Source: Candidatus Hydrogenedentota bacterium
Lineage (GTDB): Bacteria > Hydrogenedentota > Hydrogenedentia > Hydrogenedentales > SLHB01
NCBI GenBank assembly: GCA_016215105.1
Contig: JACRLJ010000145.1
Coordinates: 2,782-38,794 of the forward strand
Reading direction: 5' to 3'
DNA length: 36,013 bases
This document shows positions 1,814-21,655 of the stretch, piece after piece. The notes beneath the pieces are model-generated. The model had not been told where the DNA came from. It was given only the letters and a program-made list of their open reading frames with translations, and did not search any database. The translations under genes and the position numbers were made by a program. Position 1 is the stretch's first letter; the number at the start of each line of letters is the position of its first letter.

Positions 1814-1868
1814 GGGACTGACCCCATAATTCGCACGGCAGTCTGGTGCGAAATACGGGGTCTGTCCC
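1814..1868. repeat. REP-like imperfect palindrome (23-bp arms)
   Basis: Arms 1814-1836 and 1846-1868 are inverted copies with three mismatches around a 9-nt loop. The outer ends read GGGAC..GACCCC and GGGGTCTGTCCC. This resembles REP-type extragenic palindromes mobilised by RAYT transposases. It lies between the stop of the enoyl-CoA hydratase gene and the start of the ceramidase-like gene, and could also end transcription of the former, though no T-run follows on either strand. Confidence 0.7.
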
Positions 1869-1959
1869 TCTCTTTGATGGCGTGTCGTGCCTATGGCGCA
1901 GATTCTTGATTTCACGAGATCTCAACGGTTCCGCAACGTGCCAACTGCCGAATTCAGAT

Positions 1960-7143: not shown

Positions 7144-7201
7144 GTTTGAGCGGCCCCTGATTCCCCCTGCATCTGTGAGAAACCGTATTCGCGGGTTGCC
7201 C

Positions 7202-7309
7202 AGAGGCGCGGCCAGAAAGCCTCCGCATAGCAAAACTCCGTACGAGCCAGCGCCGGTATTGAACAACTTACAGACGCTTTCTGGCCGCGCCGCGTTAAAA
7301 AGCCGACTT
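7202..7309. repeat. Dispersed 108-bp repeat, copy A
   Basis: The inverted ends GGCGCGGCCAGAAAGC (7205-7220) and GCTTTCTGGCCGCGCC (7276-7291) are perfect 16-bp complements around a 55-nt loop. The 108-bp core matches 18746-18853 with seven differences, all transitions; weaker likeness runs on to about 7341. Copy A lies 58 bp after the Xre stop, in non-coding DNA. The compact structure suggests a MITE- or REP-like element without its own protein. Confidence 0.85.
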
Positions 7310-7341
7310 CCTGGCGGAGTCCCGAACTTCTTTGGCCTTAT

Positions 7342-15433: not shown

Positions 15434-15449
15434 CGCGTCTTCATTAATG

Positions 15450-15530
15450 ACGCTGCCGTGACTGGCGACTTGGGCGTGGAATTGACCACGAGGAAGCGGT
15501 AGCGTTTAGGTCATGCCGATCGCCTGGGCG
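15450..15530 (+). promoter_or_regulatory. ZTP/ZMP riboswitch (pfl motif)
   Basis: The aptamer shows all main pfl features. P1 is ACGCTGCC (15450-15457) with GGTAGCGT (15498-15505), eight pairs including one G-T. The conserved GTGACTGGCGA follows P1 (15458-15468). P2 is CGTGG (15475-15479) with CCACG (15486-15490), then AGGAAGCGG. After a short linker the hallmark CCGATCGCCTGGGC (15516-15529) closes the aptamer and can pair with the early loop as a pseudoknot. The class binds ZMP/ZTP, purine intermediates that build up when 10-formyl-tetrahydrofolate is short, and turns on folate and purine genes. Here it precedes AICAR transformylase, the enzyme that consumes ZMP. The 130 nt to the start codon hold the expression platform; I see no T-run terminator, so control of translation or a factor-dependent stop is possible. 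Confidence 0.93.
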
Positions 15531-15659
15531 CTGAGTGCGGAGCAACGGATTCGCTGACGTTGGGCGCCAAAGAGCATCGCTTCTTCAATTCACGCGGCCT
15601 CCAACTCTACAAGATGTTTCTGTCGCTCTCAGATGTTCAACCAAGAAGGAGCACGAAGC

Positions 15660-17827: not shown

Positions 17828-18685
17828 ATGTCAGAACAGTCTCAGCCGCCTCCACCACGAGGACGCCTTACGTTGAACGATTTCTCCCGGCTTTGCGTCC
17901 ATACCATGACCACCAAGCCGTGGTCGTTGACTGAAGCGATTGACGCTTATGCCAAGGCAGGCGTTCCTGCGATCACAGTTTGGCGTCAGCATATCACGCC
18001 GATGGGGCTTGAGGCGGCAGCGAAGGCGCTACGCGAGTCCGGCCTGCGGGTCACCAGCCTGTGCCGGGGCGGGTTCTTTCCCGCGATCAGCGAAGCGGGA
18101 CGCCAGACGGCGATTGATGATAACCGGCGCGCCGTTGACGAGGCCGCCGCAATCGGCGCTCCCCTGATCGTATTGGTTTGCGGCGCCGTGCCGGGGCGTC
18201 CACTTGAGGAAGGGCGCCGACACATTCTGGACGGCATTGCCGCGGTGCTGCCGCACGCCCAGGCCGCAGGCGTCAAGCTGGGCATAGAACCGCTTCATCC
18301 CGTTTACGCCGATAGCCGCTCGGCGGTAAACACACTCAAGACCGCAAACGACATGGCCGAGACGCTGGCCAGCCCCTGGGTCGGCGTTACGGTCGATGTA
18401 TACCACCTTTGGTGGGACCCGGATCTTGAGCGCGAGATTGCGCGCGCCGGCAAGAACATTCTCTCGTTCCACGTTTGCGATTGGCGTACTCCCACCCGCG
18501 ATATCCTGAACGACCGGGGACTCATGGGCGAGGGCTGTATCAATATCCGCCAAATCCGGCGCTGGGTCACGCGAGCCGGTTTTGAAGGCGACATCGAGGT
18601 CGAGATATTCTCTGACGAGCATTGGGCCGAGGATCAGACCCAGTACCTTGAACGCATCAAGACGGCTTATTTGAATCGCGTGTAA
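17828..18685 (+). CDS. Sugar phosphate isomerase/epimerase (xylose-isomerase-like TIM barrel)
   Basis: A 285-residue TIM-barrel protein of the AP-endonuclease-2/xylose-isomerase superfamily. The metal site is readable: Glu154 (GIEPLHP), Asp190 and His193 (TVDVYHLWWD), His215 and Asp218 (FHVCDW), and Glu259 (EVEIFS). IGAPLIVLVCGAVPG is the usual fourth strand. Such enzymes isomerise or epimerise sugars or inositols. The lyase gene begins 40 bp downstream on the same strand, so both probably serve breakdown of one polysaccharide or its sugar acid; the substrate is unknown. The start ATG 17828 has only a weak ribosome site, and the first ten residues are a Pro-rich extension. Confidence 0.84.
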   Translation: MSEQSQPPPPRGRLTLNDFSRLCVHTMTTKPWSLTEAIDAYAKAGVPAITVWRQHITPMGLEAAAKALRESGLRVTSLCRGGFFPAISEAGRQTAIDDNRRAVDEAAAIGAPLIVLVCGAVPGRPLEEGRRHILDGIAAVLPHAQAAGVKLGIEPLHPVYADSRSAVNTLKTANDMAETLASPWVGVTVDVYHLWWDPDLEREIARAGKNILSFHVCDWRTPTRDILNDRGLMGEGCINIRQIRRWVTRAGFEGDIEVEIFSDEHWAEDQTQYLERIKTAYLNRV

Positions 18686-18724
18686 GGGCGGCTGGCGCGA
18701 AGCGCCCGCAAGGAGACCTCCGAA

Positions 18725-21655
18725 ATGCACACATCAGTTCGTCCTAGAGGCGCGGCCAGAAAGCCTCCGCGTAGCAGAACTCCGCACGAGCCAGCGCTGG
18801 CATTGAACAACTTACAGACGCTTTCTGGCCGCGCCGCGTCAAAGAGCCGACTTTCTCGCCGGATTCCTAGCGATCTATATGGCCTATTGATCCTACAGGT
18901 CCTATTCCTTCAGCCGTTCCTCGCCCAAGCCCAGGAAACTCCAAGAACCATGGTTCCCAAAGCTCACGCCACGCTTTACCCGGCGGACCTCACCATCAAA
19001 GCAAAGGCCAACGCCGCGGCTTTCCCTTGGGCCGCCTCGATGCAGAAAGAGTTAGTGTCGCGCGCCGACCCTTGGCTCAACATGAGCGACGACGACCTAT
19101 GGAACAGTATCTTTGGGCCGAACATCTCGAGATCGTGGATGGTGTGGTCCGACGGATTCTGCCCGGCGTGCAAGAAAGATGTGCGCATGTACGCATGGGA
19201 AATGGAGCCGTTGAGCCGTCCGTGGAAAGTGCGCTGCCCCCGCTGCAAAGAGACGTTCCCCAAGAATGACTTCGCGGCTTATCACAAGTCAGGATTTGAC
19301 GAGCATGGGGTGTTCCAACCGGACAAGGCCAACAAGGCGCTTCTGTTCAACACCGATCATCCCGACCCGAAAGATTCGTTGCACATGTTCGGCGTGGACG
19401 ATGGCGAGGGCTACATCGCGGACGGCCACACGTGGCGGTTTATCGGCGCGTATCTCATCTATGGACACTGGAAGCTATACATCCACACCGGAATTGTCCG
19501 CCTGGGCGACGCCTATATGGCCACGGGTGACCCACGGTACGCGTATAAGGCGGCGATACTTCTTGACCGGCTTGCGGACGTCTATCCCACGTTCGATTTC
19601 ACGAAGCAGGGTTTGGTATACGAGACGCGGCAGGACGTGCGCGGCCAGATTTCCACGTGGCACGACGCCTGTGAGGAGATTCGCACGACCGCGCAGGCCT
19701 ACGACCAAATCTTTGAAGCCGCGAAGGCCCAGGAGCCGGCGTTGACGGCGTATCTCTCCAAGAAAGCCGAACAATACAGACTGCCGAACGGAAAGAAGAC
19801 CTGGGCGGCTATCCAGAAGAACATCGAAGACGGGCTCTTCGTCGACACGCTCGACCATCGCAAGCGCATCGAATCGAACTATCCGCGCACCGACATATCG
19901 CTGCTGACGCTCAAGACGGTCCTGTATTGGCCGCAGAATCGGGACGAAGTGCTGTCGCTCCTGGACGGCGTGATCCAGAAGGCGACCGCGGTCGACGGCG
20001 TAAGCGGCGAAAAGGGTCTCGCCGGCTATGGCATGATTGCGCCGAGCGCGCTGGCCGACGTTCTCGCGCTGTTCGGCCGGCTGGAGCCGGGATTCCTCAA
20101 GACCGTCTACGAGCGGCATCCGGTGTTGCACGACACGTATCGGTTCCACATTGACACGAAATGCCTCGACGCATATTACCCGTCATCCGGTGACGCCGGA
20201 GGATTCGGCGCGAAAGGACAGGCTTACGCCGGCGTCGCGTTCAACAAGAATCCTGGTATCAACCCGTCCATGTACAGCTTCCTGTGGGACCTGTATAAGC
20301 TCACGGATGACTCCGCCTTTGTGCAAGTAATGTATCAGCAGAACGAGCACAAGGTCGACGGGCTGCCCTACGACTTGCTCGCCGCCGATCCCGCCGCTTT
20401 TCAACAGCAGGTAAAGGCGGTCATCGATAAAGTTGGCGCGAGCGTCCCCCTCAAGAGCGTAAACAAGCAGCAATGGCATCTTGCAATCCTGAGGAGTGGC
20501 GAGGGTGATCAGCGCCGCGCCCTGTGGTTTGACTACGATTCCGGTGGTCCGCACAGCCACGCCGACGGCATGAACGTCGGCTACTATGCCAAAGGCTTGG
20601 ATCTGGTTACCGATTTCGGTTATCCGCCGGTTGGTTACGGCGGCTGGGGCGCGCCAAAGTCGCGTTGGTATATCTCGACGTTCGCCCATGCGACGGTCGC
20701 AGTAGACGGTCAGAACCAGAAGGCCGCCGACGGCAAGACGACGCTGTGGGCGGACGGAAACCGGGTGCGGGCCGTCCGCGCCGCTGCCCCCGAGATGATT
20801 GGCGGCAAACGGTTCGAGCGGACGCTGGTCATGGTAGACCTTGATGCGAGCGATTCGTACGTGGTGGACTGCTTTCGTGTGGAAGGCGGCAAGGACCACG
20901 CAAAGTTCTTCCAGTCCCATTTTGGCGCGGTGGAGACGACCGGGCTGACGCTGGTACCGGGCGAGGACTATGGGTTCGAGACTCCGATGCGCAATTTCCG
21001 GCATGACGCCAACGCGAAACCCGGTTGGACCGCGGACTGGACGATTGAGGATTGGTATAAGTACTTGGCGCCGGGTAAACAGGCGCATCTGCGCTATATC
21101 GACCTCACGAACGACGCTGACGCAAATCTTGCTGAAGCCTGGATTGAAACTGCGACTATGGAGCGCACGCCGGATTGGATACCGCGGATCATGACGCGAC
21201 GGCGTGGAAGCGATCCACTGCAATCCACGTTCGTCAGCGTCTTCGGCGCGTACGACGCCATGCCCACCGTCACCGGCGCTCGGCGTCTCGACCTCGAGTT
21301 TCCAGGCGGCCAAGCTCTGAAAGACACCTATGCGGGGATTGAGATCGATCGGGCTGACGGGAAACGAGACATCTGTCTTATCCCCGACAGCGAGGCGCCC
21401 GTCGAGGTACTCGAACCAAGCACGGGTATTCATTTCCGGGGACATCTCGCCGTCGTTACGATGGGGTCTGCAGTCGAGCGTATCGCGTTATACGGCGCGG
21501 AGTGGATTACGACAAAGGACCTCGACTTGCGCCTGGACGGAAAGCCCGAGTACGTCGAGATTGTGTTCGAGAACGAGGTGGCCCGCATCGCCGCCGGAAA
21601 CGCCCAAACGCTGCTGAAGATAACACGGAACGGAACAGCCGTGCCCGTCAATTAA
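18725..21655 (+). CDS. Heparinase II/III-type polysaccharide lyase, repeat inserted at 5' end
   Basis: A 976-residue protein; ATG 18725 has AAGGAG nine nt upstream. Residues 8-43 are encoded by a dispersed repeat; a signal-peptide-like hydrophobic stretch (LYGLLILQVLFLQPFLAQA) appears only at 51-69, oddly deep for export. Residues 146-174 hold a CPAC..CPRC zinc-ribbon-like pair. A helical alpha/alpha toroid follows, then the heparinase II/III-like beta domain with GGPHSHADGMNVGYYAKG (His610, His612) and FAHATVAVDGQNQ. The enzyme would cleave an acidic polysaccharide such as alginate or a glycosaminoglycan by beta-elimination; which one is not readable. Neighbours fit uronide catabolism: an isomerase/epimerase 40 bp upstream. 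Confidence 0.82.
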   Translation: MHTSVRPRGAARKPPRSRTPHEPALALNNLQTLSGRAASKSRLSRRIPSDLYGLLILQVLFLQPFLAQAQETPRTMVPKAHATLYPADLTIKAKANAAAFPWAASMQKELVSRADPWLNMSDDDLWNSIFGPNISRSWMVWSDGFCPACKKDVRMYAWEMEPLSRPWKVRCPRCKETFPKNDFAAYHKSGFDEHGVFQPDKANKALLFNTDHPDPKDSLHMFGVDDGEGYIADGHTWRFIGAYLIYGHWKLYIHTGIVRLGDAYMATGDPRYAYKAAILLDRLADVYPTFDFTKQGLVYETRQDVRGQISTWHDACEEIRTTAQAYDQIFEAAKAQEPALTAYLSKKAEQYRLPNGKKTWAAIQKNIEDGLFVDTLDHRKRIESNYPRTDISLLTLKTVLYWPQNRDEVLSLLDGVIQKATAVDGVSGEKGLAGYGMIAPSALADVLALFGRLEPGFLKTVYERHPVLHDTYRFHIDTKCLDAYYPSSGDAGGFGAKGQAYAGVAFNKNPGINPSMYSFLWDLYKLTDDSAFVQVMYQQNEHKVDGLPYDLLAADPAAFQQQVKAVIDKVGASVPLKSVNKQQWHLAILRSGEGDQRRALWFDYDSGGPHSHADGMNVGYYAKGLDLVTDFGYPPVGYGGWGAPKSRWYISTFAHATVAVDGQNQKAADGKTTLWADGNRVRAVRAAAPEMIGGKRFERTLVMVDLDASDSYVVDCFRVEGGKDHAKFFQSHFGAVETTGLTLVPGEDYGFETPMRNFRHDANAKPGWTADWTIEDWYKYLAPGKQAHLRYIDLTNDADANLAEAWIETATMERTPDWIPRIMTRRRGSDPLQSTFVSVFGAYDAMPTVTGARRLDLEFPGGQALKDTYAGIEIDRADGKRDICLIPDSEAPVEVLEPSTGIHFRGHLAVVTMGSAVERIALYGAEWITTKDLDLRLDGKPEYVEIVFENEVARIAAGNAQTLLKITRNGTAVPVN
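18746..18853. repeat. Dispersed 108-bp repeat, copy B (inside lyase 5' end)
   Basis: Same element as 7202-7309, with inverted ends at 18749-18764 and 18820-18835; 101 of 108 bases agree and all seven differences are transitions. Weaker likeness continues to about 18888. It lies 21 bp after the lyase start codon and keeps the frame open. Most differences between copies would change amino acids, so the element is not kept for its translation. Confidence 0.87.

Follow-up and report, generated by a model that had tools for sequence, protein, structure and literature searches.

An in-frame dispersed repeat between the start codon and signal-peptide core of a lyase gene from a Hydrogenedentota bacterium

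We analyzed a 36,013-nucleotide stretch of DNA (the window) from a Candidatus Hydrogenedentota bacterium, which spans positions 2,782 to 38,794 of one contig (C113) of a 6.68-Mb assembly in 171 contigs. Within it, a gene for a heparinase II/III-like lyase carries a copy of a dispersed 127-nt repeat, in frame, between its start codon and the hydrophobic core of its signal peptide. The repeat has CTAG at both ends, targets CTAG as judged from one empty site, is absent from the orthologous lyase genes of relatives, and recurs at the same spot in at least three, and probably four, other genes for secreted proteins. From these sequence comparisons, we consider it quite likely that this copy (copy B) lengthened the signal peptide of the lyase by in-frame insertion, and that the change is tolerated, with translation still beginning at ATG 18725 and the protein still exported by Sec.

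Table 1. Features of the lyase locus and of genes that carry the element near their start codons (positions are those of the window unless a contig is named)
Feature	Position	Strand	Details
Element copy A	7200..7326	+	Between genes; degraded right end (CGAA); matches consensus at 115/127
Sugar isomerase/epimerase-like TIM barrel (PF01261), upstream of lyase	17828..18685	+	Syntenic in relatives
Shine-Dalgarno site AAGGAG	18710..18715	+	9 nt before ATG 18725
Heparinase II/III-like lyase ORF, 976 aa, ATG 18725	18725..21655	+	PF07940, E 1.9e-8
Element copy B, 127 nt	18744..18870	+	CTAG 18744-18747 to CTAG 18867-18870; net 123 nt
Internal palindrome, left arm	18749..18764	+	Fold of 18743-18859
Internal palindrome, right arm	18820..18835	+	Fold of 18743-18859
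Signal-peptide hydrophobic core and c-region, LYGLLILQVLFLQPFLAQAQ, residues 51-70	18875..18934	+	Translation, hydropathy
GH42-like protein	C17:7749		ATG 10 nt before element, GAGGAG site; MRS[..]VFVSLLVLTGG; Pfam
N-acetylmuramoyl-L-alanine amidase	C24:100522		ATG 15 nt before element; MSRTGLG[..]VWLLIGIALTCC; Pfam
Right-handed beta-helix protein	C109:507		ATG 8 nt before element; MN[..]LAPAFAGMVAIVVVS; Pfam
C99 protein, half unit (fifth case)	C99:30741		ATG 33 nt before element

Copy B and the start of the lyase gene

Counted from the A of ATG 18725, copy B begins 19 nt downstream. It matches the family consensus at 121 of its 127 positions and is therefore a young insertion. It is read in the '+2' frame, as RGAARKPPRSRTPHEPALALNNLQTLSGRAASKSRLSRRIP, and the lyase frame stays open through it because its net length of 123 nt equals 41 x 3 and the '+2' frame is usually free of stops. 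The best 12-residue hydropathy window of the lyase (2.42) starts at residue 51, and by inspection and hydropathy the leader fits a positive n-region, an h-region and a c-region of small residues. With the 123 bp omitted on paper, the leader becomes the compact MHTSVRPSDLYGLLILQVLFLQPFLAQAQ, that is, M-HTSVRPSD-LYGLLILQVLFLQPFLAQAQ-ET, in which the n-region, MHTSVRPSD, has a net charge of about 0 and is weak for a signal peptide. A preliminary description of this DNA had placed a dispersed repeat in frame between start codon and signal peptide, behind an AAGGAG site, with the frame left open and the hydrophobic segment beginning at residue 51. Our reading agrees with all of this apart from two measurements: the element is 127 nt long (123 net) rather than 108, and its offset is 19 nt from the A of the ATG rather than 21 bp after the ATG.

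Just ahead of the h-region, a G to C substitution in the lyase copy (window position 18857, position 114 of the element) replaces the consensus SGR with SRR (SRLSRRIPSDLYGLL). This creates a twin arginine, but the remainder of a Tat motif is absent. We also asked whether a 9-nt (CCTAnnnnn) tract had given rise to the h-region and rejected this, with 11 matches against 9 in the reversed control.

The isomerase gene upstream of the lyase is 64 to 74% identical to, and syntenic with, its counterparts in six relative genomes, and this synteny fixes the orthology of the lyase. Lyase orthologues in relatives are 48 to 60% identical (the best one 60% over its whole length). The leaders of the syntenic orthologues, such as MHNQTRLILCLAAAWNFLASANA and MRLERLMALVLAVGFVATFASWGQ, are about 20 to 30 residues long, and no part of them resembles residues 8-49 of the lyase. 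Between the isomerase and the first conserved residues of the lyase lie 256 nt, or 133 nt without the insert, compared to roughly 100-177 nt in most relatives. Since the signal peptides of the orthologues are compact and lack the 41 residues, the element appears to have rebuilt the N-terminus of the lyase, a conclusion drawn from protein-level orthologues outside the genus, with the DNA-level empty site described below lying at another locus (C166/C154). A rebuilt N-terminus with a long signal peptide was among the outcomes that had been proposed for this gene, and it is supported by the short syntenic leaders, the mobile nature of the repeat and three further full-length copies at the same position. 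The check named as able to overturn it, a search for distant orthologues that encode the same first 50 residues, was negative, which favors the rebuilt N-terminus.

We propose that copy B inserted recently into a CTAG at codons 7-8 (CCT AGC) of the original signal peptide. With a net gain of 123 bp and an open frame, the insertion would have placed 41 mostly basic residues between the initiator methionine and the hydrophobic core. ATG 18725 most likely remains the start of translation. As the h- and c-regions are untouched, export by Sec has most likely been retained as well, with an unusually long n-region of ~50 residues and a net charge of about +9 that would be removed with the signal peptide.

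The repeat family and its target site

The two copies in the window (Table 1) are 91% identical over 117 nt. A profile search of ~2.2 Mb of the genome defined the unit as 127 nt running from CTAG to CTAG; 82 of 91 near-full copies are exactly this long, and CTAG is intact at the left end in 60 copies and at the right end in 45. The 20-mer TACAGACGCTTTCTGGCCGC from the 3' arm has 183 matches with up to three mismatches in 6.68 Mb, while its reversed form has none. In whole contigs totaling 1.88 Mb we counted 71 copies (~38/Mb), which extrapolates to ~250 in the genome, partial ones included. The element has terminal inverted repeats (CTAG, 6 nt and GGCCAGAAAG, with ~15 of 20 positions identical between the ends), such that inverted GGCCAGAAAG motifs lie inside both ends, and a third copy of the motif forms the inner palindrome. 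This decamer occurs 126 times in 1.88 Mb, compared to 3 times for the reversed control. Copies occur in both orientations, and only two of the element's frames are usually stop-free: '+2' (54 of 82 copies) and '-0' (66 of 82).

Half units (1-88 and 87-127) and doubles of ~46 nt also stand alone, which gives the family a modularity like that of REP/BIME units. Such solo half units or mini doubles lie at C146:7127, C154:11140, C41:31222 and C154:132773. We found no match to the element in 19 relatives of the same family or order, no blastn match among plasmids or phages, and no match to any Rfam family. A sole exact 21-mer match in Nannocystis, among named genomes, was attributed to chance, the element being absent there.

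One copy, on C166, has flanks that align to C154:19224-19307 at 84.5% identity, with a single CTAG at the junction, and so provides an intragenomic empty site. With a single CTAG there and CTAG at both ends of copies, the net insertion is 123 bp, or 41 codons. A target site duplication thus appears to be present, for which, at this one clean empty site, TA (2 bp) and CTAG (4 bp) are indistinguishable. Beyond CTAG, the flanks of copies show little preference. At C166, the sequence interrupted by the 127-nt element is a copy of another dispersed repeat (GGACTGACCCC...CCAACTGCCGAATTCAG), part of which lies at window positions 1815-1957 and which has related copies on C61, C154 and C166.

CTAG is scarce in this genome (observed/expected 0.18). 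Of 28 called genes that end inside an element, 27 use the TAG of CTAG as their stop. We rejected the idea that the CTAG ends are specially adapted to supply stops, as 10 of 43 non-genic copies and 116 of 576 non-genic CTAG sites lie at stop codons; the coincidence follows from where CTAG targets are available and needs no special explanation. The copies at G000:C107:48694-48820 and on C46 each lie between convergent genes, both of whose stops are the TAGs of the element's CTAG ends, as if the gene pairs had once shared one CTAG.

The element is short, is present in high copy number and codes for no transposase, as a MITE does, and its sequence features suggest a CTAG-targeting, non-autonomous, MITE/REP-like mobile element. 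None of the 13 Y1_Tnp and 5 DDE_Tnp_1 genes in the genome has the element's ends, and there are no DDE_3 or DDE_Tnp_1_2 genes. IS630-type (DDE_3), IS5-type (DDE_Tnp_1, DDE_Tnp_1_2) and Y1/RAYT partners were rejected accordingly, as none carries these ends. A partial copy lies ~1.1 kb from one of the 13 Y1_Tnp loci, which is at chance level, and TnpA-REP adjacency is not seen.

Recurrence at signal-peptide n-regions

We translated both open frames genome-wide and read every long ORF that spans an element. The case list was built from these spanning ORFs, and copies seen only as tblastn places stayed outside the full-context inspection. Four clear cases with full copies have the order start codon, element, signal-peptide core: the GH42-like protein, the amidase, the beta-helix protein and the lyase. 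The GH42 orthologue L288 starts MRRSVLIAIMILTG, and its MRRS-VLIAIMILTG aligns straight to MRS-...-VFVSLLVLTG around the insert. The GH42 and amidase copies are read in frame '-0' and the lyase copy in '+2', and the insert peptides differ. The first two are also older (111 and 110 of 127 positions matching the consensus), and both ORFs are intact.

Two further cases, on C126 and C8, are ambiguous, and a cytosolic N-formylglutamate amidohydrolase (C42) has an in-frame half unit at its N-terminus. Genes with a start of their own, preceded by the element in an open frame (C6, C155, C146, C18:1645, C132 and C35), were not counted. At G000:C52:27534-27655 (L257), a degenerate copy abuts a HemW-like radical-SAM gene with no start codon before the element, and a start directly after it may be used. 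Among the long spanning ORFs read genome-wide, we found no convincing mid-gene copy.

Full copies largely avoid genes. In the 1.88 Mb of whole contigs, 2 of 45 lie inside called genes, compared to 84% of random positions and 52.5% of CTAG sites (p = 9e-12 for the latter). By contrast, all five copies between a start codon and a signal peptide lie within 33 nt of their own ATG, compared to 6.8% of in-gene CTAG sites within the first 36 nt, and five of the six N-terminal in-frame cases look secreted, compared to ~19% of genes by a crude rule (binomial 0.0013), although both comparisons are inflated by ascertainment and an approximate gene caller. The front of the signal peptide is thus almost the only intragenic place found to tolerate the repeat. 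The clustering near the start codon and the proportion of apparently secreted proteins fit the n-region being the coding part most indifferent to 41 extra residues. We suggest that selection purges nearly all insertions within genes yet tolerates those in the n-region, which would be close to neutral, because an n-region needs little beyond positive charge and has no fixed length.

The family can be seen as a natural insertion experiment, in which the surviving CTAG insertions mark where 41 extra residues are not lethal. Besides intergenic sites and stop codons, the survivors were found at N-termini, nearly all ahead of Sec signal peptides. They provide a sequence-level test of how freely an n-region can grow, and the long leader here and the short orthologue leaders form ready-made pairs for export assays. 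Whether n-regions serve as a general landing zone, through which a MITE remodels signal peptides genome-wide and long leaders alter the timing or route of export, is a broader proposal that we doubt.

Alternative readings and known repeat systems

The preliminary description had also raised a cytoplasmic form of the lyase, or a start elsewhere. Translation could now begin at TTG 18803 (within the element), TTG 18887 (within the h-region) or ATG 18950, the last of which would leave the lyase cytoplasmic. A simple codon-usage gene caller indeed put the start at 18950, owing to the atypical codon usage of residues 1-75, and a strong hairpin begins 24 nt past the first base of ATG 18725. However, this ATG is preceded by an ideally spaced AAGGAG and followed by an open frame, while 18803 and 18887 have no Shine-Dalgarno site. 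TTG 18887 and ATG 18950 are the only in-frame starts between the element and the mature domain, and a start at 18950 would make the lyase the odd one out among orthologues, whose signal peptides directly precede the conserved domain. Three other genes have, moreover, kept ATG, element and h-region in frame. We therefore regard a downstream start as distinctly unlikely.

The same hairpin could act on the RNA, governing initiation or mRNA stability from just inside the coding region; the earlier suggestion that the stem hides or exposes the start is of this kind. The fold of 18743-18859 is strong (MFE -49.8 kcal/mol, z -4.1), yet covariation stays within the range of shuffles: by alifold, we observed 2 double changes against a shuffled mean of 0.5 and maximum of 3, and 97.7% of stem pairs are kept, compared to 97.4% when shuffled. 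With changes that are not compensatory, arms that are conserved as sequence, as the ends of a mobile element would be, and copies in both orientations, we found no positive support for control of the start by the stem, and consider a role in RNA very unlikely.

By analogy with autotransporters, the 41 residues might instead be useful, with a long n-region slowing or redirecting export and the insertions retained for that reason. Extended signal peptides of autotransporters are conserved and functional and slow Sec translocation (PMC3297439), and the predicted lyase leader is likewise a long, N-terminally extended Sec signal peptide; five secreted proteins have the insertion at the same position. 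The ratio of nonsynonymous to synonymous changes in the four in-frame copies (38/18) is also below the background of 3.0-3.2. This difference is a small, nominal one, and with so few changes we rejected purifying selection on the inserted peptide. Unlike in autotransporters, the extension here would stem from a mobile element that inserted recently, and no peptide is conserved in it: the two frames yield unrelated peptides, basic in '+2' and more hydrophobic in '-0', with no common sequence kept. As plain tolerance predicts the same positions, we think a useful leader unlikely. Nor do we favor a lyase gene in decay, with the insertion as one step of it. A lesion in the export signal would be a plausible first one, but the lyase ORF is full length and free of stops, with the identity to its best orthologue sustained throughout, and the GH42 and amidase genes, whose in-frame copies are older, are intact as well. 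This reading is highly improbable.

In-frame repeat insertion as such is already known. The ERIC, RU-1 and RU-2 repeats of enterobacteria are short, palindromic and mostly intergenic; RU-1 is 127 bp long, RU-1f has an open frame of 41 aa, and such frames are sometimes fused to genes (Delihas 2007, PMC2759123). RU-2 provides residues 1-30 of the predicted signal peptide of the Yersinia exported protein YPO1552, while fusions of ERIC/RU to large protein families are at C-terminal regions (PMC2759123). Our element shares the short, palindromic, mostly intergenic character and the open frames, and has the length of RU-1; when compared with ERIC through Rfam and plasmid/phage blastn, it gave no match. 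Unlike ERIC/RU, it extends a signal peptide that was already present, does so in either orientation, and is found in this position in four or more genes of a single genome, so that the enterobacterial precedent of YPO1552 becomes a recurrent pattern. Rickettsia palindromic elements, the classic example of in-frame insertion, are mobile, ~150 bp long and found in frame in unrelated protein genes, with nearly half of them within ORFs (PMC10969869). They differ in this from the repeat described here, of which only the 2 of 45 copies noted above lie in called genes and the convincing in-frame copies are N-terminal. The element resembles REP/BIME/REPIN units, which TnpA-REP moves (PMC8266576), in its palindromic form, the tetranucleotide at its foot, the occurrence of solo as well as paired units, a copy number in the hundreds and an intergenic location, but its foot is CTAG at both outer ends rather than GTAG, and no Y1 transposase gene is flanked by units. 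The new part is the recurrence at signal-peptide n-regions, a position-specific outcome that we did not find in the literature searched.

Elsewhere in the window, a ZMP/ZTP riboswitch (RF01750, 64.4 bits) at 15448-15536 lies upstream of an ORF starting at 15633/15660. The product reads like an AICAR transformylase, and the arrangement with this riboswitch is an ordinary one.
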